This document shows positions 25,138-44,819 of a stretch of DNA of 64,000 nucleotides, piece by piece (position 1 is the stretch's first letter; each line of letters begins with the position of its first letter). The notes under the pieces were generated by a model, which saw only the letters and a list, made by a program, of their open reading frames with translations, was not told the DNA's origin and did not search any database. This stretch comes from Gammaproteobacteria bacterium (lineage in GTDB: Bacteria; Pseudomonadota; Gammaproteobacteria; Steroidobacterales; GCA-2729495): assembly GCA_029245525.1 (NCBI GenBank), contig JAQWPD010000044.1, forward strand, positions 1 to 64,000, written 5' to 3'. Position numbers and translations under genes: made by a program.

Positions 25138-26367
25138 TTAATCCAATCGTTTAAATACCAACGACGTATTGATTCCGCCAAATGCGAAGTTATTTGACAT
25201 GACGTATTCACAAGAAATATTGCGGCCTTCTTTAACAATGTAATCAAGCTCCCCACACTCAGGATCAACATTATCAAGATTGATAGTCGGAGCAAACCAG
25301 CCTTCATGCATCATCTCAATTGCCAACCAGGCCTCAAGTGCGCCACATGCGCCGAGAGTATGACCCATGTAGCTCTTCATTGAACTGACCGGCGTGCTAC
25401 TGCCTAAAACCTCGTGGGTTGCAAGGCTTTCTGCAATATCGCCATGATCTGTCGCGGTACCATGTGTACTGATATAACCTATCTGGCTGGCATCAATGCC
25501 CGCATCATCTAATCCCTCAGCAATACAACGCGCCATGGTTTTCCGATTAGGACGTGTCACATGACTGCCGTCAGAATTGCTCGCGAAGCCAACCAACTCG
25601 CAAATAATCTTCGCGCCTCTGGCCTTCGCATACTCATATTCTTCAAGCACGAAGGTGCACGCCCCCTCGCCTAATACAAGGCCATCACGATCACGGTCAT
25701 AGGGACGCGGTGTCTTTTTGGGCTGGTCGTTCATCGTGCTGGTCGCATACAGCGTATCGAACACAGCCGCTTGAGTCGGGCAAAGCTCTTCGCCCCCACC
25801 TGCTAGCATAATATCCTGCTGCCCATAACGGATGGCTTCAAATGCATAGCCGATACCCTGACTGCCCGCCACACATGCTGTGCTCGTAGGAATAATCCGA
25901 CCCGTCAAACCAAAAAAAACGCCGATATTTACTACAGCCGTATGGCTCATCATGCGAACGTAACTCGTAGCATTTAGCCCATCGAGACTTTTATGCAACA
26001 ACATCTGACCAAACTCGGCAACGGCATCGGTGCTGCCTGCTGACGAACCATAAGATACGCCACATCTACCAGACTTAATAACGGGGTCATCCAGCAGGCC
26101 AGCCGACTGAAGCGCACGCTCACTGGCAGTGACCGCCATTTTCGAAACTCGACCCATGCTGCGAAGCTGCCGGCGCGTGTAGTGCTCCGGCACTTCAAAA
26201 CCGGTAACCGGCGAACCCAACGCGGTGTTTAAACCATCATATTCGTGCCAATGATCAAAAAACTGAACAGCATTACGATACTCGCCCAACTGCTTGCGGA
26301 TTGTTGGCCAATCCGAGCCCAGTGGCGATATTCCTGAAATAGCTGTTACTACTACCCTGCGAATCAT
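25138..26367 (-). CDS. Beta-ketoacyl-ACP synthase (ApeR-type)
   Basis: A 409-residue FabF/FabB-fold ketosynthase with an intact Cys-His-His triad: STACVAGSQ (Cys165), THGTATD (His302) and GHTLGACG (His336). It is the last gene of the minus-strand thioesterase-dehydratase-reductase block, directly adjoining the reductase gene (26368). In aryl polyene clusters the ketosynthase next to the P and Q genes is thought to act alone, early in elongation or in loading; that role is by analogy. Confidence 0.9.
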   Translation of the reverse strand: MIRRVVVTAISGISPLGSDWPTIRKQLGEYRNAVQFFDHWHEYDGLNTALGSPVTGFEVPEHYTRRQLRSMGRVSKMAVTASERALQSAGLLDDPVIKSGRCGVSYGSSAGSTDAVAEFGQMLLHKSLDGLNATSYVRMMSHTAVVNIGVFFGLTGRIIPTSTACVAGSQGIGYAFEAIRYGQQDIMLAGGGEELCPTQAAVFDTLYATSTMNDQPKKTPRPYDRDRDGLVLGEGACTFVLEEYEYAKARGAKIICELVGFASNSDGSHVTRPNRKTMARCIAEGLDDAGIDASQIGYISTHGTATDHGDIAESLATHEVLGSSTPVSSMKSYMGHTLGACGALEAWLAIEMMHEGWFAPTINLDNVDPECGELDYIVKEGRNISCEYVMSNNFAFGGINTSLVFKRLD

Positions 26368-27087
26368 TTAGCCGCTCAAGCCCCCGTCTACTGTCAAAAC
26401 CTGACGGGTAATATACGCTGCATCTTCAGAACATAGAAATGCAACAGCCTTGGCAACTTCTTCCGGCTGACCGAGACGCCGTGCCGGAATCATTTTTTTA
26501 AATTCATCGACAGCTAACTCGATAGTCATATCAGTTTCTATCAGCCCCGGCGCAACACAGTTGACTGTAATCTTACGTTTAGCCAACTCCAAAGCCAGCG
26601 ATTTTGCTGCACCAATCAAACCAGCCTTGGATGCACTGTAGTTAACCTGACCACGGTTACCGGTAATGCCAGCAACGGATGTTAGCACCACAATCCTCCC
26701 GGGCTTTCGCCTGCGCACCATAGGCATCACCAGCGGCTGAACAACATTAAAGAAACCGTCTAAATTAGTATGTATAACGGCATCCCATTCAATGCCTGTC
26801 ATTTGTGGAAACGAGGCATCTTTTGCGATACCGGCACTGCAAACCACGCCGTAATAAGCGCCATGCGCGTCAATGTCAGCATTCAGCGAATTGGCTACAG
26901 CCTCTCTCTGTGAAATATCAAACTGCAGCACACGTCCCACACCGGAACACTGCCGCAGCGTTTCTGCAGCACCTTCAGCATCACGCACATAGTGCACAAC
27001 AACCTGATAACCCTGCTGCGAGAGTTCAACAGCAACTGCCCTACCAATTCCGCGGCTTGCGCCCGTAACCAATACTGTTTCCAACAC
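26368..27087 (-). CDS. 3-ketoacyl-ACP reductase (FabG/ApeQ-type)
   Basis: A short-chain dehydrogenase that would reduce the beta-keto group each cycle. It shows TGASRGIG for NADPH binding and the YSASK catalytic motif, and ends like FabG with [11 protein letters not shown]. The GTG at 27087 is preferred because GGGAG (27092-27096) precedes it by four bases and it places the Rossmann strand near the N-terminus. An ATG at 27117 would add ten residues and lacks a Shine-Dalgarno site. Confidence 0.9.
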
Positions 27088-27129
27088 CAAACTCCCAACG
27101 TAAACGCCCTGCAACATAGTACCGTAAGA

Positions 27130-27603
27130 CTAAGCCGACAGACTCTCAAGAGACAAGTCGCCTCCGGGCTTTACATAAACCGATAAACGGGCAGAAATCT
27201 CAACACCCTCTCCAAATACCCGCCCTTCAAACGCACCTAAACCGTAGGTTGCAGCCACGTTTTCAACCACCTCCACTGTCAACTCAACACCCGATGGAAG
27301 ATATCCACAACTGGAATGGAATTTCTGACTCCCGATAAGCAAACCAAGCGGAATAGGTTCGCCACGTTCCATAGCATTGAGGCCGCCCAAAGCCGCAATG
27401 GCCTGAGCCATATATTCAATTGCTATCCAAGCAGGCACGCCATGTGGCGCCAAAAAGAAACTGCTATCCGCCGACACATGCACTGCTGCACAAAGCCGAT
27501 CCGGGTGATGGGATATCAGCGAATCCAACAGTAACATCGGGCCACGGTGCAACAGAGCATCTTCCAAAGACGCTCCCTCAACCGATATCGCATTTTCAAC
27601 CAT
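27130..27603 (-). CDS. Hot-dog 3-hydroxyacyl-ACP dehydratase (ApeP-type)
   Basis: A 157-residue single hot-dog protein of the FabA/FabZ superfamily that should remove water to form the conjugated double bonds. LLHRGPMLLLDSL matches the HRxPMLLVD-like start of the family, and PAWIAIEYMAQAIAALGG contains the conserved Glu of the central helix. The ATG at 27603 overlaps the end of the thioesterase gene (TATGGTTGA), giving coupled translation. Confidence 0.87.
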   Translation of the reverse strand: MVENAISVEGASLEDALLHRGPMLLLDSLISHHPDRLCAAVHVSADSSFFLAPHGVPAWIAIEYMAQAIAALGGLNAMERGEPIPLGLLIGSQKFHSSCGYLPSGVELTVEVVENVAATYGLGAFEGRVFGEGVEISARLSVYVKPGGDLSLESLSA

Positions 27604-28009
27604 ACGCGATGCCAAGACGATCAAACAGAACCTGTGGCGAACCCATACACATTTCTTCTGTTTCTTTATGGACTGCGACCTGAACAGTCATGCCCTTGGT
27701 GACCAAGTCACCCTCAGAATTATGAACCTGATACGATAATTTTAGGCGGTATTCATATTCTTCTAAACGCGCAGTTACCTGAATTTTTTCATCGAAGCCA
27801 ACTGTCTTTAAATAACGAATATTGGCGTCAATCACAGGCCATACGTGCCCTGCCTTTTCCATCTCTATGTAGCCATAATTGATCTTATCTAACAACACAC
27901 ACCGGGCTTCATCAAAATAGCGCAGGTAGTTGCCATGCCAAACCACACCCGCTGGGTCGCAATCGTGATACGCAACTAACACTTCAACGGTTGCTTCAAG
28001 CTCAATCAT
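27596..28009 (-). CDS. 4-hydroxybenzoyl-CoA-type thioesterase (ApeK-type)
   Basis: A 137-residue hot-dog thioesterase. YHDCDPAGVVWHGNYLRYF is the 4HBT active-site signature, with the Asp of CDPAG as nucleophile or base. It could clear stalled chains from the ACP or release product. The start at 28009 overlaps the glycosyltransferase stop (ATGA), and a longer start at 28024 is less likely. Confidence 0.88.
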   Translation of the reverse strand: MIELEATVEVLVAYHDCDPAGVVWHGNYLRYFDEARCVLLDKINYGYIEMEKAGHVWPVIDANIRYLKTVGFDEKIQVTARLEEYEYRLKLSYQVHNSEGDLVTKGMTVQVAVHKETEEMCMGSPQVLFDRLGIAYG

Positions 28010-28764
28010 ACAAATAACTTCCATAGCTTTCGGTAGAACAAAACAGGTGACAACACCAGCATACCTATGACCAGCTTAGTGTGCATTAAGGTGATCTGGG
28101 CATTATCCCTGAACATACGAAAGTGTGACAAACCCTGCTCCGGATACTCCACCTTAGTATCCATGAACTGCACCTCGCCGCCCGCCCACATCCAACGCAC
28201 TAGCGCTTCGAGATCAAACTGCATGCGCGCAGGCAATGGCACATAACGCACCACTCGCAACATCTTTTCGACCGGATAGATCCGGAACCCGCACATTGCG
28301 TCTTTAATCTCGGCGGAAAGCGTCTCAATGCGCAACAAAGCCAATGACAGCTTTCGTCCCTGCAATCGCGCCGCAGGAATATCGCCGCCAAAAGTGGGCC
28401 GCCCCGAAACCAATGCGTCTGGGAACTTTCTCGACACGGCAATCATAGGCTTTATATCGCTCGCCCGATGCTGGCCATCAGCATCAATCTGAACCACATG
28501 GGTATAGCCACGCTGCTTGGCTTCGGCGATACCCAACATCACAACAGAACCTTTGCCGCGATTCCTGGCAACCTGAACCAGCTCGAAACCCTGATAGCCT
28601 GCAACAATTCGGCTGACTTCAGCAATGCTCAATGGATCACTGCCATCATCTATGATCAATCCTGGCATGCCAGCTTCAGCCAGCAGTGGCATAAATCGCC
28701 TTAACTGCTCATGGTGGTTGTAGTGCGGAATCAGCAGACAATATTTTTCATGTATGCACGACAT
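28006..28764 (-). CDS. Family 2 glycosyltransferase
   Basis: A 252-residue GT2 enzyme. LLIPHYNH starts the nucleotide-sugar fold, DDGS follows, and VVQIDADGQH is the DxD-type metal site. The last segment near residues 232-248 is hydrophobic, so it may be membrane-associated. In E. coli-type aryl polyene clusters a GT2 domain is fused to an acyltransferase (ApeJ, from memory); here the LpxL-like acyltransferase is a separate gene at 35961. The donor and acceptor are unknown. Confidence 0.85.
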   Translation of the reverse strand: MSCIHEKYCLLIPHYNHHEQLRRFMPLLAEAGMPGLIIDDGSDPLSIAEVSRIVAGYQGFELVQVARNRGKGSVVMLGIAEAKQRGYTHVVQIDADGQHRASDIKPMIAVSRKFPDALVSGRPTFGGDIPAARLQGRKLSLALLRIETLSAEIKDAMCGFRIYPVEKMLRVVRYVPLPARMQFDLEALVRWMWAGGEVQFMDTKVEYPEQGLSHFRMFRDNAQITLMHTKLVIGMLVLSPVLFYRKLWKLFV

Positions 28765-28766
28765 AT

Positions 28767-29111: not shown

Positions 29112-29122
29112 AACGATGGTCT

Positions 29123-29958: not shown

Positions 29959-30111
29959 ACCTTTTGAGCACGAAGTCTCGCAACCTCTGCCTATCGCTAT
30001 TTAAATAGAGCAATGCGTTCGCTGCTTTCCGTGGCGAACCCGTGTTGCTGAGTATATCAGCGAGTAAACGCAGAATGCATAGCCAGCAGTTATTTTCGCT
30101 ACCATAAGGCA

Positions 30112-30924
30112 TCACGCCCTGTACTCTGCCATTAGCGCGTCACCAAACCACGCTTCCAAATACTGATTAAACCTGCGGGACGCCATGCGCGGCCCCAGGT
30201 CTTCGAGTAATTCAGGATCCACCCGCATTGTAGGCTTTACAGCCAACCGCATTATAACTTGCTCCGAGGGCACAGAGTACCAAGGGTCAGACTTGGTCAA
30301 CGTTGTCGGTGATACATCAATGAGCACCGGAAGAATATCGCAATCTGCCCGCACAGCAATAGTTGCTGCGCCAGCTTTAAAGTCCAGTGGTCGGCCGGGA
30401 GCGGTGCGGGTTCCTTCAGGAAACAGAATAAGTGTGTTCGCCCGCTGTAACGATTCAACGCAACGGGTCAAAAGAAGCTCCGGGTCTGCATTTGAAATAT
30501 AGTCAGCACTTCGCATCATAAGGTGAGTAAAAGGGTTAACCCAAAGAGCACGCTTTACGACACATTGCGACTCTGGGTACATCGCCAGCAAAAAAATAAC
30601 GTCAATTAATGACGGGTGGTTCGCTAAAATCAATAATGGACCCTGAATATCATGCCGCTTATAGCCGCTGATTTCGTAATCAAGAACCCCCAAAGTCCGC
30701 ATCAACCAGACAAACAGTTGACACAAGTGGCCAACCTGTCGCCGCAGTGCGCGCTGCACTTCCGCAGTCTTACCCCATTGGGTAACTGACGCGATGATAG
30801 CAATAGGCAGAATTAAAGCACCCATCAGCAACGCGCCGAGGCCGAAAGCGCCGAAACTGATAGCCGTAGCCAGCCATCGCCAACAATGATTTAAGAACTG
30901 CAGCAAAAAAAACACCCCATTCAA
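30112..30924 (-). CDS. PlsC-like 1-acylglycerol-3-phosphate acyltransferase (ApeD-type)
   Basis: A 270-residue membrane acyltransferase with N-terminal hydrophobic helices. The HX4D catalytic motif is NHPSLIDV and the glycerol phosphate-binding motif is FPEGTR. In aryl polyene clusters this protein probably helps join the polyene to a lipid. It is divergent from the ketosynthase gene at 31059. Confidence 0.87.
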   Translation of the reverse strand: MNGVFFLLQFLNHCWRWLATAISFGAFGLGALLMGALILPIAIIASVTQWGKTAEVQRALRRQVGHLCQLFVWLMRTLGVLDYEISGYKRHDIQGPLLILANHPSLIDVIFLLAMYPESQCVVKRALWVNPFTHLMMRSADYISNADPELLLTRCVESLQRANTLILFPEGTRTAPGRPLDFKAGAATIAVRADCDILPVLIDVSPTTLTKSDPWYSVPSEQVIMRLAVKPTMRVDPELLEDLGPRMASRRFNQYLEAWFGDALMAEYRA

Positions 30925-31058
30925 CGCCGGGCACGGTACCCGCGTATTGTGCCTATCGTTCCCCCGGGTCTTGAAACAGGACTGCGACGGTGAAATAGTA
31001 CCACCCCCATACAGTTGATTCGTTAACTATTGTTTTCCAAACCAACCGGCAGCGCACA

Positions 31059-32252
31059 TTGTATTCCAATTGTTTCATATCCTCCTACACACTCACATGC
31101 AGCGCGGGCATCGGGCTGGCAGCGATCCGGAACTCTGTTCGTAATAACTTGAGCGGACTGAGCGATAAAGGCTGGCCGGATAGTGATGTAGAGACCTGGC
31201 TCGGGATGGTCGATCAAGGCTCACTGAACCGCATTGCACTTACGCACAAATGGCTAAGTCGCAACAATCAGCTTGCCCTGCTGGCAATGACTCAGGATAA
31301 CTTCCTCGCAGCAGCTCGGGAACAGATTAGCCGATTCGGGCCACAGCGCGTTGGCGTAATACTCGGCACCAGCACTTCAAGCATTGGCCGCACTGAAGAG
31401 GCTTATTGCCACTTAAGCTACACGGATGAGTTCACCGCAGAGTATATGCAACCGGAAATTAATACACCGCATTCGACCGGCGCCTTCATCGCTAACTATC
31501 TAGGCATAACAGGCCCTGCAATAACCATTAGCACCGCCTGCTCATCGAGCGCGAAAGCATTCGCAAGCGGCGCGCGCTGGCTCGAGGCCGGCCTGGTTGA
31601 TTCCGTCATCATTGGTGGCGTCGACACGCTGTGCCTGAGCGTCATTTATGGATTTAACTCTCTGCAACTCGTCTCAAGCGAAGCCTGTAAACCCTTCGAC
31701 CAGTTCCGCACAGGAATAAGTCTCGGCGAAGCCGGCGGCTTCGCCATTCTGAATAAAGACTCAAAAAATGCACAAGCAGCATTATTAGGCTATGGCGAAA
31801 GTACTGATGCATGGCATATGTCGACGCCCCATCCTGAAGGACTCGGCGCGAAGCTTTCGATGCAGCAGGCATTAGATCGTGCATCATGTGAGGCTTATGA
31901 TATTGACTACGTCAATCTTCATGGCACCGGCACCCGTGCAAATGACGATATCGAAGGTCTTGCCTGCCAGACGCTATTCGCCGATGCGCTGGCGGACACC
32001 TATGTCAGCGCAACAAAGGGGCTCACTGGCCATACACTCGGCGCAGCAGGCATCACCGAAGCAATTTTAGCTATTGAAAGCATTAAAACCGGCATCGTGC
32101 CAGGCACAACCAATACGACTCAGCCCGAAACAGTGATGCGTGAACACCTGGTGCTAACCAGTACGGAAGCCGCGATAGGCAAAGCCATGAGCAATTCTTT
32201 CGGTTTTGGCGGAAATAACTGCACCCTTATTTTCGGAGATGCAGGAGAATGA
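31059..32252 (+). CDS. Beta-ketoacyl-ACP synthase (ApeO-type)
   Basis: A 397-residue ketosynthase with the complete triad: STACSSSAK (Cys161), LHGTGT (His288) and KGLTGHTLGAAG (Lys320, His325). It overlaps the chain-length-factor-like gene by four bases (ATGA), as expected for a heterodimeric type II ketosynthase pair. The only plausible start is TTG at 31059; there is no in-frame ATG before the first beta-strand and no clear Shine-Dalgarno site, so the N-terminus is uncertain. Confidence 0.9.
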   Translation: MYSNCFISSYTLTCSAGIGLAAIRNSVRNNLSGLSDKGWPDSDVETWLGMVDQGSLNRIALTHKWLSRNNQLALLAMTQDNFLAAAREQISRFGPQRVGVILGTSTSSIGRTEEAYCHLSYTDEFTAEYMQPEINTPHSTGAFIANYLGITGPAITISTACSSSAKAFASGARWLEAGLVDSVIIGGVDTLCLSVIYGFNSLQLVSSEACKPFDQFRTGISLGEAGGFAILNKDSKNAQAALLGYGESTDAWHMSTPHPEGLGAKLSMQQALDRASCEAYDIDYVNLHGTGTRANDDIEGLACQTLFADALADTYVSATKGLTGHTLGAAGITEAILAIESIKTGIVPGTTNTTQPETVMREHLVLTSTEAAIGKAMSNSFGFGGNNCTLIFGDAGE

Positions 32253-33052
32253 AACTCTATGTATCAGGCATCGGTATCTGGTCGGATCTTGCACAAGACT
32301 GGGAGCAACTTAAAACCGCTTTGGCCGAAAATTCCAATACGAACCCGGCCGGCGTCCCCCTATCCAAACTCATTCCCGGGGCAGAGCGGAGGCGTGCGCC
32401 TAAAACGGCGAAGCTGGCAGTCGAAGTGGCCGAGCAAGCATGCCGTATGGCCAAAGCTGACATGAGCGACACGGCATCTGTGTTTACCTCGGTACTTGCT
32501 GACACCGAAATCTCAGACAACATCTGTCGGGCACTAGCGCTGCCACAAAAAATATTATCGCCAACAAAGTTTCACAACTCAGTACAAAATGCCCCTGCAG
32601 GTTACTGGGCAATAGGAAGCGGTAATCATGCACCGTGCAATTATGTCGGCGGCTTTATGGAAAGCTGGGCCTTAGCACTTATAGAAGCGGCAAGCCAATG
32701 CCTTATCGAGCAACGGAATGTATTATTGGTGAACTACGATATCGCCAACAAAGCGCCTCTCTCTGGGGTGTGCCGAATTGATGAAAGCTTCGCCAGTGCA
32801 CTGCTACTGCAAGCGACCTGCACACACCAAGACAGCGTAGAGCTCAAACTTGAATTGTGTGCTGGTAGCAATCCTCAGCCTATCGCCCATAGCCTATCTG
32901 CGCAAACACTATGCCGCAGAAACCCAAGTGCTGCCGTGCTGGCACAACTTGAAGTATTTGCGATGAAAACTGACGAACAAAATGCAACAGAGTTACGTTG
33001 GCCAATAAATTCTGATGCCCATTTACGGATCAGGAGTCGAGGCTCACTGTGA
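32249..33052 (+). CDS. Ketosynthase-like chain length factor (ApeC-type)
   Basis: A 267-residue protein like the N-terminal thiolase half of a ketosynthase (Ketoacyl-synt_2 family). FHNSVQNAPAGYWAIG is the family's hallmark, and the active Cys position is occupied by a non-catalytic GGFMESWALAL segment. No HGTGT or GHTLG motif is present, so it cannot condense by itself. It is expected to pair with the ketosynthase encoded just upstream and to limit chain length. Confidence 0.82.
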   Translation: MKLYVSGIGIWSDLAQDWEQLKTALAENSNTNPAGVPLSKLIPGAERRRAPKTAKLAVEVAEQACRMAKADMSDTASVFTSVLADTEISDNICRALALPQKILSPTKFHNSVQNAPAGYWAIGSGNHAPCNYVGGFMESWALALIEAASQCLIEQRNVLLVNYDIANKAPLSGVCRIDESFASALLLQATCTHQDSVELKLELCAGSNPQPIAHSLSAQTLCRRNPSAAVLAQLEVFAMKTDEQNATELRWPINSDAHLRIRSRGSL

Positions 33053-33065
33053 CAGCTGCCATGAC

Positions 33066-35324
33066 TTAGCTGAGCGAACCCAGTCGCGCTATACCAAAAG
33101 CTATTAACACCCCAGTCAGCACGGTAAACCCAAGGCCGGAAAGAATCGGCACTGCTGACGATGCCAGGACAGCAAAACCTGCAGCTGTCGATAGCACCGA
33201 AGCCAGTATCGCGTGACGGCTGTTGGCGATACTGTTATCAGATGGGAGCGCTACGCGACTCAGAAACAAGAGATAATCCAGTCCAAGCCCCGCCACCAGC
33301 ACAACCGCCATAAGATTAAACAGCGATATCGCATCGAACAAGAGCAGATTAACGGCAAGTGTTCCGGCGACCGTCGCGAGCAACCCCCCAGCAACCCAAA
33401 ACAATCGGCGGCCAGGACGAAGCACGGCGAGCAGTACGCCACATATCAGGACAAAGGCAATGCCTAGCATCGTGAGTATTCGTGCTCGGTATTGCTGCAC
33501 CAGGGATACCGATGCCTGCTTCAAATCGATGAGCAGAGCTTCGGGAGCGTAATCAGCAAGCTGCTCAGAAAAAACGGCCACATCGGCAATTTGCCCCGGA
33601 ATCAAAACGGAAGACCACACCCCTTCCCGCTCATACAAACCCGAGGCAATGCTCTGCTCAAAGACTGTATCCGCGTAACTTTCCGGCACTAATAAAAGCC
33701 TCCGTTGTAACGCCATCACATTGCTAGAAAACGCATCAAAAGCGTTCTCGACCAACCCGAACTCACGGGCAGCCTGAATGGCAAACTCGGGCTTAAAGAC
33801 CGCAGCCATTGCAACCCGCTGTTCCTGCAGCACTGCAGGCGGCAATAGATCCGACACCGATTGGACCGAGCCTACCAATTCCGGATGCAGTCGAAGAATC
33901 TCGGTGACCCTCAAGGTCTCTTCAAGCAATGAATCGAGATCTTGCGACTGCAGTAACAACAAATAGCGAATATCCGGTGCACCGAACTCTGCACGCAACG
34001 CCCTATCGCGTTCGATAGTTTCAGCAGGCAGTGGCGTTAATGCCGACAAGTCGTCAGACCACAAGTGATCGGCGCCATGAAACAATACGGAGCCACCAAG
34101 CAGCAATATCAACAACCACACATGATGGCGTAAGCGGACCGGCTCCGCCGAAACAGCAGACTCATCTGAAACCGAAGTAACGTCTCCGAGCAATGCCGGC
34201 AATAGGGTCATGCTGACCAACAAAGCAACACTCACCCCAACCGCCGAAAATACACCCAATTGGGCCAAGCCTTCCGAACCCGAAGCCGCCACAGCAAGAT
34301 ACGCAAGTACAGTGCTGCCCGCGCCAAGACGCAAAGTGGGCCATATATGCTCCAATGCTGCTCGGCCACTGCGACCATGACTAAACACATGCAATGGAAA
34401 ATCTATCGCGACGCCAAACAAGGTAAAACCGAAAGCCAGCGTGATGCCGTGAATCTGGTCGAACAACAGAGTTACAGCGGCCAGTGCTGCAAGCGCACCA
34501 ATCGCGAGTGGCAATGCGCTTAACAACACAACATGCACACTGCGGTAAACCGCAAGCAACACAATAATAATCGCGAGTATTGCAAGCAGGCTGCGCAACT
34601 GGGCCTCAGACTGAATTGTCCGCTGCAACTCCACACCGTATGCACCTACACCATAGGTCTGAGCAACAGTACCAAACTGGTCATTCGCAATATGAGCAAT
34701 TAAGGCTGCAATCTTCTGCTGCGCTCCGATCTCATAAGCTGGCGCGCGCGCCTCCGCGACAAGATAAACGCGCCCGCCCGGAGTAACCCAAGTCATCGTC
34801 GCAGAACTTTGATCGGCAGAAAGCTTGCTTAGGACTTCCAGCGAAGACAAATAAGGATCTGCAGCAATAATATCTTCCAGCGCTGGGTCAGGCGCAAAGG
34901 TAAGATCGGGTATACGCGAGCCTATAGCTGCATTCACGCCTGCCTGTGAAAGGTCAATATCATCGAGCAAATAGCGGTTGGCAAAAATAACATCCGGCAA
35001 CCGCTCAACAGAGAGTGTCTGTCGGCCGTTATAAACACTGCGAAACAGTCCCGAGTTCTCCAACTGAAACCTGAACTCATTGCTGGCATCAAAGGGCTGG
35101 GCAGAAAAACCTTCAGGCAAAACAATAAACCAAAGCTGTGACCCCGCCCCCTGACCGAGACGATCGACCAACACCGATTCCTGAGGCGTTTCGGCGGCTG
35201 GCAAAAAGTAGGCTAGATCAACCGTACTATTAAAACGGGTAATCACCGTAAGTGCGCTCAATCCTGCGCACAATAACCACAGCAGCAGCCAAACGCGCAG
35301 ATTGCGGGGATGGGCATCGGTCAC
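33066..35324 (-). CDS. MMPL/RND-family exporter (ApeM-type)
   Basis: A 752-residue protein with about twelve membrane helices in two repeats, each with a large periplasmic loop after the first helix. Sequences such as GFTLFGVAIDFPLHVFSH and ALGLDYLLFLSRV-like GLDYLLFLSR are the helix 4 features of MMPL transporters. It probably extracts the aryl polyene lipid from the inner membrane and hands it to the LolA-like partner encoded 10 bp upstream. It converges on the chain-length-factor gene. Confidence 0.88.
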   Translation of the reverse strand: MTDAHPRNLRVWLLLWLLCAGLSALTVITRFNSTVDLAYFLPAAETPQESVLVDRLGQGAGSQLWFIVLPEGFSAQPFDASNEFRFQLENSGLFRSVYNGRQTLSVERLPDVIFANRYLLDDIDLSQAGVNAAIGSRIPDLTFAPDPALEDIIAADPYLSSLEVLSKLSADQSSATMTWVTPGGRVYLVAEARAPAYEIGAQQKIAALIAHIANDQFGTVAQTYGVGAYGVELQRTIQSEAQLRSLLAILAIIIVLLAVYRSVHVVLLSALPLAIGALAALAAVTLLFDQIHGITLAFGFTLFGVAIDFPLHVFSHGRSGRAALEHIWPTLRLGAGSTVLAYLAVAASGSEGLAQLGVFSAVGVSVALLVSMTLLPALLGDVTSVSDESAVSAEPVRLRHHVWLLILLLGGSVLFHGADHLWSDDLSALTPLPAETIERDRALRAEFGAPDIRYLLLLQSQDLDSLLEETLRVTEILRLHPELVGSVQSVSDLLPPAVLQEQRVAMAAVFKPEFAIQAAREFGLVENAFDAFSSNVMALQRRLLLVPESYADTVFEQSIASGLYEREGVWSSVLIPGQIADVAVFSEQLADYAPEALLIDLKQASVSLVQQYRARILTMLGIAFVLICGVLLAVLRPGRRLFWVAGGLLATVAGTLAVNLLLFDAISLFNLMAVVLVAGLGLDYLLFLSRVALPSDNSIANSRHAILASVLSTAAGFAVLASSAVPILSGLGFTVLTGVLIAFGIARLGSLS

Positions 35325-35334
35325 GGCCAGGCTC

Positions 35335-35964
35335 TCAAAGCCGTGGTGCCTCAGCTACCGAAAAGCTCAGGCGCTGCCAACGTTTTGGTCCTTGATCAAT
35401 GAAAATTTCAGTAATCTCATCGGCTGTTGCGGACACATTCATCTCCAGCACATAGCGGCGTAAATACTTATTTTTGGGCTTACAGATCAACGTCCAGCTA
35501 TCTCCATCATGCTCAATTGCGACAACATACAACTCGTCAATCGTATTAATGTCGCCTTCAAGAATGGCACGCAAGCTACGGAAAAAGTCGTACAGTCCCT
35601 GATCTTTAGTAATCGAGAACTCTCGCGTTTTATCAACTCGCTCCACCCGCACCAAATTATTGCCGATTGTAATCGTTTCCTGAAATGGCTCGATAACACG
35701 TTTTATCAACTCACCCTGACCACTAAAGACAATATCTCCAGTAATTTTCAGCGGCTCACGCAAACGGCTAGCCATCCGGTATTCGGTGTATGTCCGTGGC
35801 TCATCACGTCGCACATCCAGGCTGGAAAGAATCTTCACAAGCTCCAGATCAGAAGCTACCGATTGAGCACAAGCGGAGGCCATAGAAAGAGCCAAAAAGA
35901 CACAGCAAAAAAATCGCCTCACTCCAAAGCCGGCTGTATTCAACTTACACAATAAGACTTTCAT
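35335..35964 (-). CDS. LolA-like periplasmic carrier (ApeL-type)
   Basis: A 209-residue secreted protein. A signal peptide (about residues 1-34, ending CAQSVA or nearby) is followed by an open-barrel LolA-related domain with FIDQGPKRWQRLSF at the end. It is expected to ferry the product across the periplasm. The ATG overlaps the acyltransferase stop by four bases. Confidence 0.82.
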   Translation of the reverse strand: MKVLLCKLNTAGFGVRRFFCCVFLALSMASACAQSVASDLELVKILSSLDVRRDEPRTYTEYRMASRLREPLKITGDIVFSGQGELIKRVIEPFQETITIGNNLVRVERVDKTREFSITKDQGLYDFFRSLRAILEGDINTIDELYVVAIEHDGDSWTLICKPKNKYLRRYVLEMNVSATADEITEIFIDQGPKRWQRLSFSVAEAPRL

Positions 35965-36845
35965 ATAAAATAATCGTAAAAATTAAACCAGTTGTCGGGA
36001 GCCCTTTTTACATATTTCTCCAAACAATCCATATAACGTTGTGCGAACAGTCGTATGTCTTGTTGACGATCCTTGCGGGATGTCTTCAGACCCGTTGTAA
36101 GAACCTCGCAATGTACGTCATAGCCACCATCAACGAAGACTGGGAAGATCGCAATCACGGGGGCCTTAAAAGCCGCTGCCACCATGAACGGTCCGGCCGG
36201 CAACCTGGCCTTACCATCAAGGAAGTCAACTTCAATCACACGATCACTCTCAAACACCCGATCAGCAAGAAAGCCTACCCACTGTGACTCACGCATTGCT
36301 GCTGCAATCTCTACACCAAGCGAGGCCGCCGATTGATGGGGACTAATGATCGAGCGGATAAATTCCGGATCAATTTCGGCCATTCGTCGCATAAAATTAG
36401 GGTTAATTTCATCATCAACTACGATCCTCATTTGTACCTGAGGATGCTCAACTGCGACCATGCGCGCCGCCTCAAATGAACCAAAATGTGCCGCTAAAAA
36501 AACCCCACCCTGAGCATCCTGCACAAGATCAACCAATGGCTCAGTGCCAAAGAAACGTATCCGGATATTGCTGGCGCGACCCGACATGATGAATATTCGA
36601 TCGGCAGTCACCCGAGCGAAAGTCATGAATTGGGCGAATACTTCATGCCATTTTGGCTTGCGTTGATAAACACGGGACAGAAAACGCTGTGATGCGTGAC
36701 GCTCATCGGCTCGAACCAAAACAAAGTACAACACCACCGGATACAGCAATACAAATACTGCTGCCCTGCCAAAAGTAATCGCAAAAAGCTCCATGAAGCG
36801 AAGTGCCCACATGGAGCCTGCCTCAGGTCGCTTACGCCAGCCCAC
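35961..36845 (-). CDS. LpxL/HtrB-like acyltransferase
   Basis: A 294-residue inner-membrane acyltransferase of the lipid A late-acyltransferase type. An N-terminal helix is followed by LAAHFGSFEA, the HX4E catalytic motif, and a later VGFLADRVFESDR segment. It is separate here from the glycosyltransferase at 28006, whereas the two are fused in some aryl polyene clusters. Its start overlaps the AMP-ligase gene by 14 bases. Confidence 0.83.
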   Translation of the reverse strand: MGWRKRPEAGSMWALRFMELFAITFGRAAVFVLLYPVVLYFVLVRADERHASQRFLSRVYQRKPKWHEVFAQFMTFARVTADRIFIMSGRASNIRIRFFGTEPLVDLVQDAQGGVFLAAHFGSFEAARMVAVEHPQVQMRIVVDDEINPNFMRRMAEIDPEFIRSIISPHQSAASLGVEIAAAMRESQWVGFLADRVFESDRVIEVDFLDGKARLPAGPFMVAAAFKAPVIAIFPVFVDGGYDVHCEVLTTGLKTSRKDRQQDIRLFAQRYMDCLEKYVKRAPDNWFNFYDYFI

Positions 36846-38247
36846 TAACTTCGCCCTGTGTTTTTCCTGGTTCCACAGGAATCCCCTCAGCCTGCAACAA
36901 GATCTGCAGCGCCGCTTGTTTTAGCTTGCCCGTCTCGTCGCGAGGCAATGCATCAATCTGACAGACTCTGCGCGGCAAAAAACTCTGCTCAATTAGGCCT
37001 GCCAACGCTTTTTCAACGGCGGCAGCATCTCCATCCTGCAGAACCACCAATATAAGCAAACGGCCGGCTTCAGTCTGGGGCGGTAAAACGACACCATCAA
37101 CAACGCTGTCCAGAGACAGCAGTGTGGCATTCAAATCTGCCAGAGAGGCCCTTTTCCCGGCCACTTTAATCAGATCCGAATCACGACCCACTATTGAGAA
37201 ATCGCCGTTCTCAGAAAAGCATAATTCATCCGCAAGCTTCACAGGATGAGCAAGATGAGGCGCGGACAAAATGGCTGCGCCGTCTTCCTCAATCATAGTG
37301 AACTCAGGAAAACGCCTAAAATACTGCTGCCATTCGGCAGCAACTGACAAACGGCAGGCAAATGATCCGGCTTCGCTACAACCATAAATCTCAAGCAATT
37401 CCCCATGAATTGAATCAAGCAAACCCATCGCCAAACTATCATTTAATGGTGCTGTAGCTGACAACAGATGTCTAACCAGAGAGATATCCATACCCGAGCG
37501 ATACAGAGCCCGCAAATGGTGCGGCGTGGATACAAAGTAGTTGTCGGCTCCGACAAGTTTTAGAGCAGCGATAACGTCACCGGGAAACAGTGTCGAACCA
37601 GAAAATATCGCAATATTAGAAACACAGGATACTAGCAAAGACCACTCCAGCCCATACATATGCCAGGGCGGTGCCGTCGATACAATTGCTGGATTAGAGC
37701 CTAATGATAACGACTCATGCAATACACGGCTGTTGATCTTTGCACCAGCAAACAAGCTGTCCACCGTCTTCTCTATAGACTGTGCGATACCGGTGGTGCC
37801 AGAGGTATAAACGATTGCAGCCAATTGATCGGCAGGCAATAACGGAACTCCAACGTTACCCGAGCACTGCTTGACTCCGGACATGTCAAAAACGGGCAAA
37901 GGACACTCATTGAATGCGGCTGAAGTCACAACATAGGCCTCAGGAAACTGCCGTGCAGCACCCTTAAGTAGACCCACTTGATGACCCGGCAATAGGACAT
38001 TGCATTGGCCTCGAAGCAAAACAGCAAAAAAAGTTACTGCAAACTGATAACGATCCTCGCAATAATTTATCGCATACGGCTTATCGGGAAGGCTCTCTGC
38101 AAGCGCAGTCACATGAGATAAAAAATCTCCAGCAGAAACCTGTCCTTTTGCGGTCAGAAACATAGGCCGGTGCATTGCCCGGTCTAACATTAAGTGAGTT
38201 GCTGAATTCAAGACTGGCCTCCGGGCCAAACTCGACAAACCCGACAA
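36832..38247 (-). CDS. Acyl-CoA synthetase-like AMP ligase (ApeH-type)
   Basis: A 471-residue ANL-superfamily ligase, expected to activate the hydroxybenzoate starter and load it on an ACP. The AMP-binding loop is AIVYTSGTTG, and a later DLIKVAGKR segment is the hinge region. The C-terminal Lys motif is ETGKLKQ. It starts 15 bp after the ACP gene and forms an operon with the acyltransferase, carrier and exporter. Confidence 0.88.
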   Translation of the reverse strand: MSGLSSLARRPVLNSATHLMLDRAMHRPMFLTAKGQVSAGDFLSHVTALAESLPDKPYAINYCEDRYQFAVTFFAVLLRGQCNVLLPGHQVGLLKGAARQFPEAYVVTSAAFNECPLPVFDMSGVKQCSGNVGVPLLPADQLAAIVYTSGTTGIAQSIEKTVDSLFAGAKINSRVLHESLSLGSNPAIVSTAPPWHMYGLEWSLLVSCVSNIAIFSGSTLFPGDVIAALKLVGADNYFVSTPHHLRALYRSGMDISLVRHLLSATAPLNDSLAMGLLDSIHGELLEIYGCSEAGSFACRLSVAAEWQQYFRRFPEFTMIEEDGAAILSAPHLAHPVKLADELCFSENGDFSIVGRDSDLIKVAGKRASLADLNATLLSLDSVVDGVVLPPQTEAGRLLILVVLQDGDAAAVEKALAGLIEQSFLPRRVCQIDALPRDETGKLKQAALQILLQAEGIPVEPGKTQGEVSGLA

Positions 38248-38262
38248 ACAGGTTTGCTGAGC

Positions 38263-38532
38263 TCAACCAGCGACAGTCTGCTGGCCGATAAATGCAGATA
38301 AGCTTCGCAAAGTACGAAAAACCTCTTTGGTTTCTTCGTCTTCGGCCTTTATATGAACGCCATAATTCTGGGACACTGCCACAGCGATTTCGAGGGCATC
38401 AATAGAATCAAGCCCTAAACCATCATCGAATAGGTTGTCTTCCGGCTCAATATTGTCAGCAGTAACGTCTTCAAGATTCAACACTTCTACAATTAGTTCT
38501 GCCAATTTTTGTTCTTCTACCGATTTTTCCAC
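38263..38532 (-). CDS. Second acyl carrier protein
   Basis: An 89-residue ACP with the phosphopantetheine Ser in GLGLDSIDALEIAV. It heads the minus-strand operon ACP-ligase-acyltransferase-LolA-like-exporter. It is adjacent to the ligase gene, so it may be the starter-loading ACP. It is divergent from the halogenase gene, and the 116 bp between them should contain both promoters. Confidence 0.93.
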   Translation of the reverse strand: MEKSVEEQKLAELIVEVLNLEDVTADNIEPEDNLFDDGLGLDSIDALEIAVAVSQNYGVHIKAEDEETKEVFRTLRSLSAFIGQQTVAG

Positions 38533-38648
38533 GCTTAAGCCCCACTTCCTTAGCCTATGGTCAGATTGATCTGTTTAAAACATCCGGTGCATGAATATTC
38601 ACGCAATGCCCTATTTTGAGCAAACCGCGGTTCAAGTACAATGGCGTC

Positions 38649-39947
38649 ATGAACATTGAAGCTCAAACCGCACCAGTCGGCAACAACACTCAAACCAGGG
38701 ATGTCATAGTGATCGGTGGCGGGCCCGCTGGCACAACTGTGGCAACATTACTTGCACAAAAAGGCTGGCAAGTCACTCTATTTGAAAAAGAAACACACCC
38801 ACGCTTTCATATCGGCGAATCACTCCTGCCAATGAACTTGCCTATCTTTGAGCATCTGGGCGTACTCGACCAAGTCGCCGCTGCTGGCATCAAAAAAAAT
38901 GCAGCCGTTTTTACCAGCCCAACGATCAAAGCCAAGCCCACCCGCTTCCCATTCGCAAATGCTCTGGCTGACTCACCACCTCATGCCTATCAAATTGAGC
39001 GCTCCAAGCTCGATAAAATACTGTTCGACAACAGCCATGCCAACGGTGTGCAAACTCTCGAGCAGCATGAGGTTATTGCCATATCTCTAGTGAAAAACGG
39101 TACACATAAACTGCAAGTTCGTGGTCCTGACAACAACATTCGTGCGTGGCAATGCCGCTATGTGCTGGACGCATCCGGACAACAGTCGCTCATATCCAAA
39201 CAGCAAAAGTGGAGGCTGCCGAACTCTCGACACTCGGCTTCTGCAGTTTTCGCCCACTTTTCCGGTATTCCGCTTAATGAGGGTGATGGCTCTGGAGATA
39301 TCAACGTGTATTGGTTTGCTCAGGGCTGGATGTGGTTTATACCCCTTGGCGACGACCTTATGAGCATAGGGATTGTCGCAAGCCCTGACTACCTGAAAAC
39401 GCGCAAGCCAACAGAATCATTATGTGACTTTCTTAGCAACACCGTGAACAAGTCGTTTGCAGCCCGTAAACGATTTAAAAACGGAACACAGCTGTTCCCT
39501 GCAAAAGCAGTATCGAATTATTCGTACACATCCAGTCAACGCAGTGGCGCAGGGTTCGCTCTTATCGGTGATGCACATACTTTCATTGATCCGGTATTTT
39601 CGAGCGGTGTATATCTGGCAATGTCAGGTGCAGAACGAGTGGTGCCGTTAGTCGACCATTGGTTGCGGGGAAATAGGCTAAGGTACGCCATTACACGCAA
39701 TCGCTACGAGCACACAATGACGCGAGCAGTAAAGGCATTCAGCTGGTTTATATACCGTTTTACAACGCCTCAAATGGAGTATTTATTCCAGAACCCGCGC
39801 AATATATTGGGTGTAGAGCAGGCGGTAGTGTCAATGCTTGCCGGCGATGTGTATAAACGTAACTCGGTACATCTGCGATTGCTCGTATTTAAGTTCATCT
39901 TCTTTATGGCTGGTATTTTCGGGCCAGCCAAACGGCAAAAAAGCTAA
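38649..39947 (+). CDS. Flavin-dependent halogenase-like enzyme
   Basis: A 432-residue FAD enzyme. VIGGGPAGTT (21-30) binds FAD, then RFHIGESLLP. Halogenase hallmarks are present: WMWFIP (W227, W229, I231, P232) fits WxWxIP, and FIDPVFSSG (312-320) fits the Fx.Px.Sx.G tunnel motif. Lys83 in IKKNAAVF aligns by eye with the catalytic Lys of phenolic halogenases. It is predicted to halogenate the aryl ring or polyene. The first ATG at 38649 is used; a TTG at 38616 would add 11 residues. It starts the three-gene block with the chorismatase and radical SAM genes. Confidence 0.85.
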   Translation: MNIEAQTAPVGNNTQTRDVIVIGGGPAGTTVATLLAQKGWQVTLFEKETHPRFHIGESLLPMNLPIFEHLGVLDQVAAAGIKKNAAVFTSPTIKAKPTRFPFANALADSPPHAYQIERSKLDKILFDNSHANGVQTLEQHEVIAISLVKNGTHKLQVRGPDNNIRAWQCRYVLDASGQQSLISKQQKWRLPNSRHSASAVFAHFSGIPLNEGDGSGDINVYWFAQGWMWFIPLGDDLMSIGIVASPDYLKTRKPTESLCDFLSNTVNKSFAARKRFKNGTQLFPAKAVSNYSYTSSQRSGAGFALIGDAHTFIDPVFSSGVYLAMSGAERVVPLVDHWLRGNRLRYAITRNRYEHTMTRAVKAFSWFIYRFTTPQMEYLFQNPRNILGVEQAVVSMLAGDVYKRNSVHLRLLVFKFIFFMAGIFGPAKRQKS

Positions 39948-39950
39948 CAC

Positions 39951-40997
39951 ATGTCAATAGCGGCTAAAAAAACCCCATCGTGTTCTGAGCTCACTGTCCG
40001 CTTAGACAAGACAGATGGCTCAAACGAAACTAACGCGCTTTTCCGCTTTTGTTTTGGTCGAGACTTGTCCGAGCAATCTGCTGACGGCACAGTGAATATC
40101 CCCATACCTCTTCAGGTACTAGGCAACGGGGCCAAGTTCGAAGTTTGGGAAACCAGCGAACCCGTGCACAGCGGCAGAATAGCTAACAACATGTTTTTTG
40201 CTGCCAGTACATCGTGGCTGATGATTCACACTACAGTCCTTATCGATGACACTAGCGACCTAAGTTCACTAACTCATGATATCTACAACAACATGCTGAA
40301 TGAGGTGGTCCAGCGCAACTATGAAGACATAGTTCGCACCTGGAATTACATTCCTGAAATTAACAAAGGTGATGGCGACAGTGAGCGCTACCGACAGTTT
40401 TCTCTAGGTCGCTCGATTGCCTTCGAGTCACACAACTGCAACATTGAAACACTCCCTGCTGGAACAGCCATCGGCAGTGTTGCAGGAACGCAGTTGGGTA
40501 TTACGATACTCGCCGCCAAGAGCAGCAACATCCGGGTCGAGAATCCGCGTCAAATGAGCGCCTTTCAATATCCTCGCCAATACGGGCCCCGCAGCCCTTC
40601 ATTCGCACGCGCTGTATTATTAAGCCAGTGTGAGCTTCCCGTTCTGCTTGTATCGGGGACTGCGAGCATACTAGGGCATGAAAGCGTGCACACCAGTAAA
40701 TTAATCAATCAGGCCGAAGAAACAACACGTAACATTGTTAGTCTGCGCGACGCCGCCCTGAAACAATCCGGCACGGCTGAGAGCTTCTCAGCAGGATGCC
40801 TGCGCATCTATGTCCGCGATAAAGCCGACTTCCCCATAGCTGTCGACAGCCTGAAAGAGTTACTCCATAACCGGGATGGCAGCAAGCCCGACTATATCGT
40901 GCTGCTCGGCGATATCTGCCGAACCGACTTGCTGGTAGAAGTTGAGGCGGTCTATCAAGCAAGGCCTCCGCTTGCAGACAATATCGCACTGGCTTAA
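39951..40997 (+). CDS. Chorismatase (FkbO/Hyg5/XanB2-like)
   Basis: A 348-residue enzyme that should convert chorismate to a hydroxybenzoate. Segments WNYIPEIN (131-138), ERYRQFSLGRS, ENPRQMSAFQYPRQYGPRSP (197-216) and SGTASILGHES (235-245) are diagnostic of this family of two YjgF-like domains. Family members make 3-hydroxybenzoate, 4-hydroxybenzoate or dihydroxycyclohexadienoate; the subtype cannot be fixed by eye. Three bases separate it from the halogenase gene. XanB2 supplies the xanthomonadin starter in Xanthomonas, so the same role is inferred. Confidence 0.88.
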   Translation: MSIAAKKTPSCSELTVRLDKTDGSNETNALFRFCFGRDLSEQSADGTVNIPIPLQVLGNGAKFEVWETSEPVHSGRIANNMFFAASTSWLMIHTTVLIDDTSDLSSLTHDIYNNMLNEVVQRNYEDIVRTWNYIPEINKGDGDSERYRQFSLGRSIAFESHNCNIETLPAGTAIGSVAGTQLGITILAAKSSNIRVENPRQMSAFQYPRQYGPRSPSFARAVLLSQCELPVLLVSGTASILGHESVHTSKLINQAEETTRNIVSLRDAALKQSGTAESFSAGCLRIYVRDKADFPIAVDSLKELLHNRDGSKPDYIVLLGDICRTDLLVEVEAVYQARPPLADNIALA

Positions 40998-41012
40998 CGA
41001 GGCAAAGGATTC

Positions 41013-42332
41013 GTGAAAATCGCTTTTATCTCTGGTAATAGGGAAAAACTTCCTGATGCAGTAGTGCCTATCGGACTCCTGTACATCATGGCCAACACCC
41101 CCGATTGCCATGACAAAGAGCTGATTGATCTGTGCTTTGTCGACGACCCTGACGCACACCTGAAAGAAACACTCGGCAAAATGAGCCCGGATGTTGTGGC
41201 ACTGGGAATGCGCAATATCCAGAACAATGATTATTCCGGCATGGAAGACAATCTCAATTACTACGCTGATTTAATCGTTACCATTCGCAAAAGCTGTTCT
41301 GCATCTGTGGTTCTTGGGGGCTCAGGCTTTAGTGTCATGCCCAAAGAATTAATGGCTCGACTCAAACCCGATTACGGCATTTCCGGTGAAGGCGAACAGG
41401 CGTTTCCAAAGCTGCTGAAGGCTCTCGAAACCGGAGAAGGCATCAACGCAATCGGGGCGCTGCATCGATATATCGATGGTCAGATACTATCAAGCCCGCG
41501 ACCACCCGAGTTTCTGGACATGAACACGCTGATACCGCCAGACCGGTCACTTGCGGCGCACACGTATTACCAGAGCTTCGGTGTCGACTCTATCCAAACC
41601 AAACGTGGCTGTCCGCTAAGGTGCGACTATTGCACCTACCCCATCATTGAAGGCAGGGTTGGGCGCACCCGCGACCCGGTGGCCGTTGTCGATGAAATGT
41701 TTGCTGCGGCAAATGACTGCCCTGATATCAATCACTTTTTTATCGTTGACTCAGTATTTAATCTACCTAAAACTCACGCTAAGAAAGTTTGTCGCGAACT
41801 AATAAAGCGCAACTGGACGATTCCATGGACCTGCTATGCCAACCCATTGGGTTTTGATACAGAGTTTGCCGAACTGGCGAAGGCAGCGGGCTGTGCTGGC
41901 ATGGAAGTCGGATCAGACTCAGGGGTAAACCATGTGCTAAAAAAAATGCACAAAGGCTTTACCACCGATCACATCCGAAAGCTGCACAACACATGTGAAA
42001 CAACCGGCATTCCTGATTGCCACACATTCATTATCGGTACTGAGGGCGAAACTATCGAGGATGTGCAACAGACGCTGGATTTCATTGCTGACCTCGATCC
42101 ATTCAGCGTATTTATCATGATCTGGATCGATGATTTCGAAGCGTTGGATCCTGGCTATCGGGCAGAGCGAATGGCATTCCGAAAGGATATCGAAGTCTTG
42201 CTGGAAGCGAACAAAGACAAGTTCCCAACCTGGTCGGTTCCGGCGCTGAAAATCAATTTCAATGAGCGACTGTTTGCGGCACTGCGCAAATCCGGCAGGC
42301 ACGGTCCTCTTTGGCAACACATAAGGGGCTAG
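41013..42332 (+). CDS. Cobalamin-binding-type radical SAM enzyme
   Basis: A 439-residue protein with an N-terminal B12-binding-like Rossmann domain (residues about 1-150, ending GISGEGEQAFPKLL) and a radical SAM barrel with CPLRCDYC (Cys200, Cys204, Cys207). The canonical DxHxxG cobalamin motif is not seen, which is common in this superfamily. Members often methylate unactivated carbons. The start is GTG at 41013. In the pigment cluster it could methylate the ring or chain; that is inference. No cobalamin riboswitch was recognised upstream. Confidence 0.85.
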   Translation: MKIAFISGNREKLPDAVVPIGLLYIMANTPDCHDKELIDLCFVDDPDAHLKETLGKMSPDVVALGMRNIQNNDYSGMEDNLNYYADLIVTIRKSCSASVVLGGSGFSVMPKELMARLKPDYGISGEGEQAFPKLLKALETGEGINAIGALHRYIDGQILSSPRPPEFLDMNTLIPPDRSLAAHTYYQSFGVDSIQTKRGCPLRCDYCTYPIIEGRVGRTRDPVAVVDEMFAAANDCPDINHFFIVDSVFNLPKTHAKKVCRELIKRNWTIPWTCYANPLGFDTEFAELAKAAGCAGMEVGSDSGVNHVLKKMHKGFTTDHIRKLHNTCETTGIPDCHTFIIGTEGETIEDVQQTLDFIADLDPFSVFIMIWIDDFEALDPGYRAERMAFRKDIEVLLEANKDKFPTWSVPALKINFNERLFAALRKSGRHGPLWQHIRG

Positions 42333-43019: not shown

Positions 43020-44819
43020 ATGAATCAGCCTCCTTTTACCTCGCACCAACTGCTTTCACGGCGACGCTTTGTTACAGGCGTTGCGGCGGGCGCCTCACTC
43101 GTTGCCTCAGGGCTCATGACCAGAGCGGATGCAAACAATAACCTGAGTGGCAATACTTTTAATCTGACTATCGGCAATCAGCAGGTGAACTTCACCGGGA
43201 AAAACCGCATCGCCACAACTGTCAACGGTTCACTGCCAGGGCCCACACTGCGCTGGAAAGAAGGTCAGCACGTAAATATGAACGTGACCAACCAACTTGG
43301 TGTCGACAGCTCCATTCACTGGCACGGCATTATTCTGCCCGAAGACATGGACGGTGTCCCGGGCTTGAGCTTCGCCGGCATAAGGCCTGGCGAAACGTTT
43401 AATTATAATTTTAAGCTTAACCAAAGCGGTACCTACTGGTATCACAGTCATTCCGGGTTTCAGGAGCAAACCGGGGTTTTGGGCGCAATAGTCATTGAAC
43501 CTGAGGGCGGCGAGCCTTTCCCCACCGATCGCGATTACGTCATCATACTGTCGGATTGGAGTGACGAAAAACCCGAAAGAGTTTATAGCAATCTGAAAAA
43601 ACAAAGTGACCTCTACAATTGGAATGAACGAACCTTAGTGGATACGTGGCGTGACATTCGATCGAAAGGGGTTTCAGCTACTGCTGCCGACCGGCATATG
43701 TGGAATATGATGCGTATGTCTGATCGCGATATCTCGGATGTCAACGGCACAACCTATACATTTCTGATGAACGGTCAGACACCTGCAGACCGCTGGAAGG
43801 GTTTGTTCAAACGTGGCGAAAAGGTCCGTTTAAGATTCATCAATGCCGCCGCCATGACGTTTTTCGATGTTCGCATTCCAGGCCTTAAACTTAAAGTTGT
43901 CAGCGCCGATGGGCAGGCTATCGAGCCCGTGACTGTCGATGACTTTCGTATTGGTGTGGCCGAAACCTATGATGTCATCGTCGAGCCAGAAAGCGATGCG
44001 GCCTATAGCATCTTTGCTCAGGACATCGATCGCTCCGGCTATGCCCTCGGCATGCTAACTCCGGATCTGTCATTAAACGCAGATGTACCCACGATGGACC
44101 CACGGCCTATTCTCAGCCATGCCGACATGGGTATGAGCATGGCGCACGCGGGCGGCGGTCACAGCGGCATGAATCACGGAAATATGGCCAGCCCCAAAAT
44201 GAATCACGCCAACATGACCGATCCCCACATGAATCACGCCAACATGACCGATCCCCACATGAATCACCGCAGCCCAGCGCCGGCGGGCATGGGCAGCACT
44301 GCACCCATCATTCACAAGAGCTCCGAAAAAGGCCCGCAAACGGACATGCGTGCAGAAATGCCACAGACTCAACTCAACAATCCCGGTATCGGACTGGTCG
44401 ATAATGGGCGACGAGTGCTCACCTACGCCGATTTACGCAACCTTTATCCGACACCCGACCCACGCGACCCTACGCGGGAAATTCAATTGCATCTCACTGG
44501 CAACATGCAGCGTTATATGTGGTCCATGGATGGCATGGCCTTTGTCGATGCCGAGCCATTGAAATTTAACTATGGCGAGCGGTTACGCATCACTCTGGTA
44601 AACGACACCATGATGAATCATCCCGTGCACCTGCATGGCATGTGGAGCGACCTTGAAACGGGAGATCCAAAACGTATTCCGCGAAAACACACCGTGATCG
44701 TGCAGCCTGGTAGAAAAATCAGCTATCTGGTCACTGCCGATGCAAGAGGCAACTGGGCGTATCATTGCCATCTGATGTATCACATGATGGGTATGTTTCG
44801 CGTTGTGGAGGTAAGTTGA
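43020..44819 (+). CDS. copA: Copper resistance multicopper oxidase CopA
   Basis: A 599-residue periplasmic multicopper oxidase, exported by Tat (SRRRF at 13-17). Copper-binding motifs are HWHGI, YHSHSGFQ, HPVHLHGMW and YHCHLMYHMMGM. A Met/His-rich insert (about residues 374-420) contains tandem MNHANMTDPH repeats and probably binds Cu(I). It lies 103 bases after the small Cys-rich gene and is followed by copB. Confidence 0.95.
   Translation: MNQPPFTSHQLLSRRRFVTGVAAGASLVASGLMTRADANNNLSGNTFNLTIGNQQVNFTGKNRIATTVNGSLPGPTLRWKEGQHVNMNVTNQLGVDSSIHWHGIILPEDMDGVPGLSFAGIRPGETFNYNFKLNQSGTYWYHSHSGFQEQTGVLGAIVIEPEGGEPFPTDRDYVIILSDWSDEKPERVYSNLKKQSDLYNWNERTLVDTWRDIRSKGVSATAADRHMWNMMRMSDRDISDVNGTTYTFLMNGQTPADRWKGLFKRGEKVRLRFINAAAMTFFDVRIPGLKLKVVSADGQAIEPVTVDDFRIGVAETYDVIVEPESDAAYSIFAQDIDRSGYALGMLTPDLSLNADVPTMDPRPILSHADMGMSMAHAGGGHSGMNHGNMASPKMNHANMTDPHMNHANMTDPHMNHRSPAPAGMGSTAPIIHKSSEKGPQTDMRAEMPQTQLNNPGIGLVDNGRRVLTYADLRNLYPTPDPRDPTREIQLHLTGNMQRYMWSMDGMAFVDAEPLKFNYGERLRITLVNDTMMNHPVHLHGMWSDLETGDPKRIPRKHTVIVQPGRKISYLVTADARGNWAYHCHLMYHMMGMFRVVEVS
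44171..44268 (+). repeat. 30-bp tandem repeat coding the Met-rich segment of CopA
   Basis: The units at 44201-44230 and 44231-44260 are identical (start TGAATCACGCCAACATGACC), with a diverged copy at 44171-44200 and a partial copy at 44261-44268. Thirty bases preserve the frame and encode Met/His/Asn repeats in copA, so copy number can change the Met-rich segment by ten residues. Confidence 0.95.

Follow-up and report, generated by a model that had tools for sequence, protein, structure and literature searches.

The window analysed here is a stretch of 64,000 nucleotides of gammaproteobacterial DNA. On its forward strand, positions 38649..39947 are a stop-free open reading frame whose translation is a protein of 432 aa (P0001); its ATG at 38649 is nested within a longer frame that begins at a TTG at 38616. 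The gene is the first of a tight operon, in which it is followed by a chorismatase gene after a gap of 3 bases and then by a B12-radical SAM gene after a gap of 15 bases. This operon stands head-to-head with an operon for an acyl carrier protein (ACP) and an AMP ligase, and the genes for an LpxL-type acyltransferase, LolA and an MMPL exporter are likewise divergent from P0001. The features are as follows.

25138..26367, minus strand: second beta-ketoacyl synthase, most similar to that of the Vibrio/E. coli APE type
26368..27117, minus strand: FabG-type ketoreductase
27130..27624, minus strand: ApeP-like dehydratase
27596..28024, minus strand: thioesterase-like protein (4HBT)
28006..28764, minus strand: family 2 glycosyltransferase
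30112..30924, minus strand: PlsC-type acyltransferase
31059..32252, plus strand: beta-ketoacyl-ACP synthase
32249..33052, plus strand: KS-like chain-length-factor partner (Ketoacyl-synt_2)
33066..35324, minus strand: MMPL-family exporter
35335..35964, minus strand: LolA-like protein
35961..36845, minus strand: LpxL-type acyltransferase
36832..38247, minus strand: AMP ligase (ArcT/Xcc4015-like role)
38263..38532, minus strand: acyl carrier protein (ACP), oriented divergently to P0001
38649..39947, plus strand: FAD-dependent halogenase-lineage protein P0001, 432 aa (from Pfam, structural relatives, alignment and tree)
38895..38897, plus strand: codon of Lys83 of P0001, the equivalent of the catalytic Lys (from alignment to solved halogenases)
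39327..39344, plus strand: WMWFIP of P0001 (WxWxIP motif, residues 227-232)
39582..39608, plus strand: FIDPVFSSG of P0001 (FxxPxxSxG motif, residues 312-320)
39951..40997, plus strand: chorismatase, FkbO/Hyg5/XanB2 family (PF21168 above cut-off)
41013..42332, plus strand: B12-binding radical SAM protein, nearest to TIGR04072 (below its cut-off)

The cluster around P0001 is an aryl-polyene (APE) cluster of the xanthomonadin/arcuflavin type: a XanB2-type chorismatase is present together with a KS and its CLF-like partner, an ACP, an AMP ligase, LolA, an MMPL exporter and an acyltransferase. The chorismatase (39951-40997) scores 198 bits against TIGR04444, under the curated 325, and carries the Cys of Hyg5 (VCRSDLL) where FkbO has Ala. 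This Cys presumably accompanies 3-hydroxybenzoate formation, and the enzyme is a probable source of that compound. No ring-hydroxyl methyltransferase was found among the cluster genes scanned (25138-42332); its gene may lie elsewhere, as in Azoarcus, where it occupies an unlinked locus. No flavin reductase is encoded within the cluster either, and one PF01613 protein is encoded on another contig of the genome. The region 25138-38532 mixes two APE types, with the second KS, FabG, ApeP and thioesterase genes being most like those of the Vibrio/E. coli type and the KS/CLF pair and AMP ligase being of the xanthomonadin type. Just 3′ of the P0001 operon lies a gene for a multicopper oxidase with His/Met-rich NHANMTDPHM repeats (43020-44819, plus strand), and the segment 45563-46222 (minus strand) shows a weak match to 2OG-Fe(II) oxygenase.

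Several pigment clusters are available for comparison. The Xanthomonas xanthomonadin clusters contain halogenase genes and their pigments carry 0-2 Br, while Lysobacter has no such halogenase gene and a pigment without Br (PMC3691225). Like P0001, the Xanthomonas halogenase belongs to a 3-HBA-primed APE cluster with a KS/CLF-like pair, a likeness that rests on gene content (PMC3691225). In Steroidobacter 35Y, a xanthomonadin cluster of 14 genes is accompanied by a dibromo pigment (PMC5979037). In Azoarcus sp. BH72, arcA, which encodes a halogenase-annotated flavoprotein, adjoins arcB, which encodes a XanB2-type chorismatase, as at the P0001 locus, and the product, arcuflavin (C41H52O4), is halogen-free (PMC3949708). 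The arcuflavin pathway also shares its AMP ligase, ACP, LolA, exporter, KS and CLF-like genes with the P0001 cluster; it differs in having the methyltransferase gene arcM (at an unlinked locus) and DAR genes, whereas the P0001 operon has a B12-radical SAM gene instead (PMC3949708). In the APE cluster of E. coli CFT073, no flavoprotein is annotated.

The P0001 gene was compared with those of two congeners, whose proteins are 88-91% identical to P0001. The nucleotide differences at the first, second and third codon positions number 20/16/121 and 32/17/134, respectively. Because third positions dominate, the gene is a constrained coding gene under purifying selection, and a chance open reading frame at 38649-39947 is ruled out by the same pattern. 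An AF2 model built from P0001 and the two congeners gave a pLDDT of 31.9, too low for the model to be of use.

P0001 scores 102 bits for the Pfam family Trp_halogenase, whose cut-off is 21, and its best solved relatives are CndH, CmlS, 3NIX and ChlB4, with CndH and CmlS foremost. A GxGxxG FAD-binding motif is present as GGGPAG at residue 23. The sequence-only reading had named Lys83, WMWFIP at residues 227-232 and FIDPVFSSG at residues 312-320 within this frame, and all of them were found at those positions. When P0001 was shuffled 200,000 times, WxWxIP arose 80 times and FxxPxxSxG 1,430 times, and the two never co-occurred. Residue 83 is a Lys in the context I81-K82-K83-N84, and the Lys column of CndH, CmlS, PltA, Mpy16, ChlB4 and 8ZOP matches K83, not K82; K82 is replaced by Gln in the congener L040. 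K83 thus corresponds to the catalytic Lys (K79 in PrnA), an assignment made by alignment with solved relatives other than PrnA.

Each of the 72 aligned sequences has the catalytic-site lysine, and all three motifs (Lys, WxWxIP and FxxPxxSxG) are also present in 3NIX and in the flavoproteins of clade B, a second family that comes from APE clusters of the Vibrio/E. coli type. Geranylgeranyl reductases have neither the Lys nor the other two motifs, and a ring reductase identity for P0001 was rejected on this ground. Since 3NIX and clade B share the motif set, it is no evidence of activity; as judged from these alignments, the three motifs mark a wider halogenase-like group as against geranylgeranyl reductases, and not halogenation itself. 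With CndH (3E1T), CmlS (3I3L), PltA (5DBJ), Mpy16 (5BUK) and ChlB4 (7FCO), P0001 shares the fold family, the Lys, WxWxIP and an FxDPxFSxG-type motif, at only moderate similarity (127-157 bits). A C-terminal stretch, LFxxPRN...SLLAGDvF...LFKxiYY (residues 374-426 of P0001, 39768-39926), is conserved in clade A, the clade of P0001, and sets it apart from these five enzymes; it is also missing from clade B. Within the genus this stretch is strongly hydrophobic, and it is perhaps a membrane or carrier contact.

Phylogenetic trees were constructed with IQ-TREE and FastTree and rooted with geranylgeranyl reductases, which were substituted for QhpG when a search of 143 genomes gave no match to the latter at the threshold used. 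The rooted tree excludes five divergent sequences, and its reference sequences are partial ones taken from HMMER alignments. Clade A comprises 42 sequences and is monophyletic (99.4/100), while 3NIX and clade B group together (99.9/100). Six solved halogenases join clade A, and the split of this assembly from 3NIX, clade B and the geranylgeranyl reductases is moderately supported in IQ-TREE (82/87) and has an SH-like support of 0.995 in FastTree. The nearest characterised branch to clade A is that of CndH, CmlS, PltA, Mpy16 and ChlB4. A GDAxxFxDP motif is found in clade A and the solved halogenases, whereas GNAxxFxDP is mostly found in the 3NIX/clade B group. P0001 therefore does not fall among non-halogenating reductases, being apart from both the geranylgeranyl reductases and 3NIX. 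The earlier view favoured a halogenase over a ring monooxygenase or reductase. Both the tree and the xanthomonadin-type cluster are consistent with it, but the motif reasoning behind it is weaker than was claimed; its conclusion is likely right, and its reasoning only partly so.

The genomic settings of the two clades also differ. A chorismatase gene occurs in 25 of the 41 clade A loci, immediately downstream of the halogenase in 20 of them, and in none of the 15 clade B loci; these counts are lower bounds, as several loci end at contig ends. The halogenase gene is present in all three genomes of the genus, and relatives 48-52% identical to P0001 occur in one further genus of the family and in one genus that belongs to a different family of the order. 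Among named records, Chromatiales metagenome bins come nearest; the close relatives are known solely from metagenome bins, and no relative was found in viral contigs. Two genomes of the same family, G018 and G021, retain the chorismatase-radical SAM pair, which in the case of G021 lies within an APE cluster. Neither gave a match to the halogenase, and the patchy presence of the latter fits a tailoring enzyme. On a Variovorax replicon, a clade A halogenase gene (L098:11968-13305) has no APE gene within 12 kb; clade A is thus not strictly tied to such clusters. Another clade A homologue (L030/L063; G269:C286:4472-5698) is recorded with a single TAG in its frame, and about 0.4 kb beyond it lies a distant radical SAM gene.

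From the gene, its motifs, the operon, the cluster type and the phylogenetic placement, we infer the activity, halide, substrate and timing of P0001 as follows. With a probability of about 0.72, P0001 is a two-component FADH2-dependent halogenase on the CmlS/CndH/PltA side that tailors an aryl polyene of the xanthomonadin/arcuflavin type. In the chemistry of this family, FADH2, O2 and halide yield HOX, which passes through a tunnel to the lysine, and an activated aromatic carbon is substituted (PMC10696468, PMC5945002). In the present case, 3-hydroxybenzoate would come from the operon chorismatase. Its loading would fall to the divergently encoded AMP ligase and ACP, and its elongation to the KS/CLF, KR and DH set. 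A flavin reductase encoded elsewhere in the genome would provide FADH2 to P0001, where a C4a-hydroperoxide would form with O2; attack by halide would give HOX, which would reach Lys83 through a tunnel lined by WxWxIP. From there, the activated halogen would substitute the ring beside the phenol of 3-hydroxybenzoyl- or aryl-polyenoyl-ACP, and the adjacent vinyl carbon may perhaps be halogenated as well. PltA-type enzymes act on carrier-bound substrates. By analogy with them, and given the neighbouring ACP, P0001 most likely acts on a 3-hydroxybenzoyl or aryl-polyenyl group bound to the carrier. Of the halides, bromide is the likelier, and P0001 is probably a brominase.

Counted for the halogenase reading were the Trp_halogenase score, the tree placement, the GDA motif, the chorismatase linkage, the patchiness, the brominated Xanthomonas and Steroidobacter pigments and the flavin reductase in the genome. 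Counted against it were, mainly, the halogen-free Azoarcus pigment, and further the non-specific motifs, the lack of an in-cluster flavin reductase and the split of only 82/87. The medium of the Azoarcus feeding cultures was LB with 0.5% NaCl, bromide being unmentioned (PMC3949708). In our own reading, this case would accordingly weigh against a chlorinase more than against a brominase, and a brominase starved of bromide may account for it.

The same pigment could point to another explanation, that P0001 is a halogenase-fold flavoprotein which, rather than halogenating the head group or the chain, oxygenates or otherwise oxidises it. In favour of this, the arcuflavin cluster shares the gene pair with the P0001 locus and its product is halogen-free (PMC3949708), the motifs recur in 3NIX and the APE-cluster flavoproteins of clade B, and QhpG shows that a halogenase-like fold is able to hydroxylate (PMC7876137). 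However, P0001 sits with the solved halogenases and not with 3NIX and clade B, which form a separate clade with GNA for GDA and without chorismatase genes in the clade B loci, even though clade B shares the APE-cluster setting. Moreover, arcuflavin contains no extra oxygen that needs an oxygenase beyond those of a methoxyaryl polyene and a DAR ester, and brominated pigments are known from the Xanthomonas and Steroidobacter clusters. We regard this explanation as unlikely. The solitary Variovorax homologue would suit an active halogenase for a free phenol or another metabolite rather than an aryl polyene, but the operon with a chorismatase and the divergent ACP and AMP ligase genes, a setting that recurs across clade A, makes this quite improbable for P0001. 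A decayed or inactive relative could be imagined from the apparent dispensability of some pigment-cluster members and from the TAG-bearing homologue in G269; with the frame of P0001 intact, every motif kept and the changes strongly biased to third positions, the chance of this is very slight.

The most unusual feature of the P0001 operon is the B12-radical SAM gene directly after the chorismatase gene. The pair is also conserved in two further genera of this family at 49-50% identity (radical SAM gene at 41013-42332, plus strand; counterparts at L120:9245-10564 and L121:9306-10631), and in one of them it lies within an APE cluster without a halogenase. No description of a B12-radical SAM gene in APE clusters was found in the literature. 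We tentatively consider that a cobalamin-dependent radical SAM enzyme and a halogenase may share one head group or chain as their substrate in this APE pathway, the former possibly acting by C-methylation or in the manner of its ladderane-associated relatives.

The family of P0001 is widespread and already annotated, and it tailors yellow aryl-polyene pigments; P0001 is mostly an ordinary member. The usual checklist of Lys, WxWxIP and FxxPxxSxG does not separate halogenases from other APE-cluster flavoproteins. P0001 adds a probable APE-cluster halogenase from an uncultured gammaproteobacterial lineage. Xanthomonas pigments are brominated and that of Azoarcus is halogen-free, a conflict that can be tested with P0001 as one more enzyme. 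If the tentative reading of the operon is true, the halogenase, chorismatase and B12-radical SAM genes together would lead to a pigment class not yet described.
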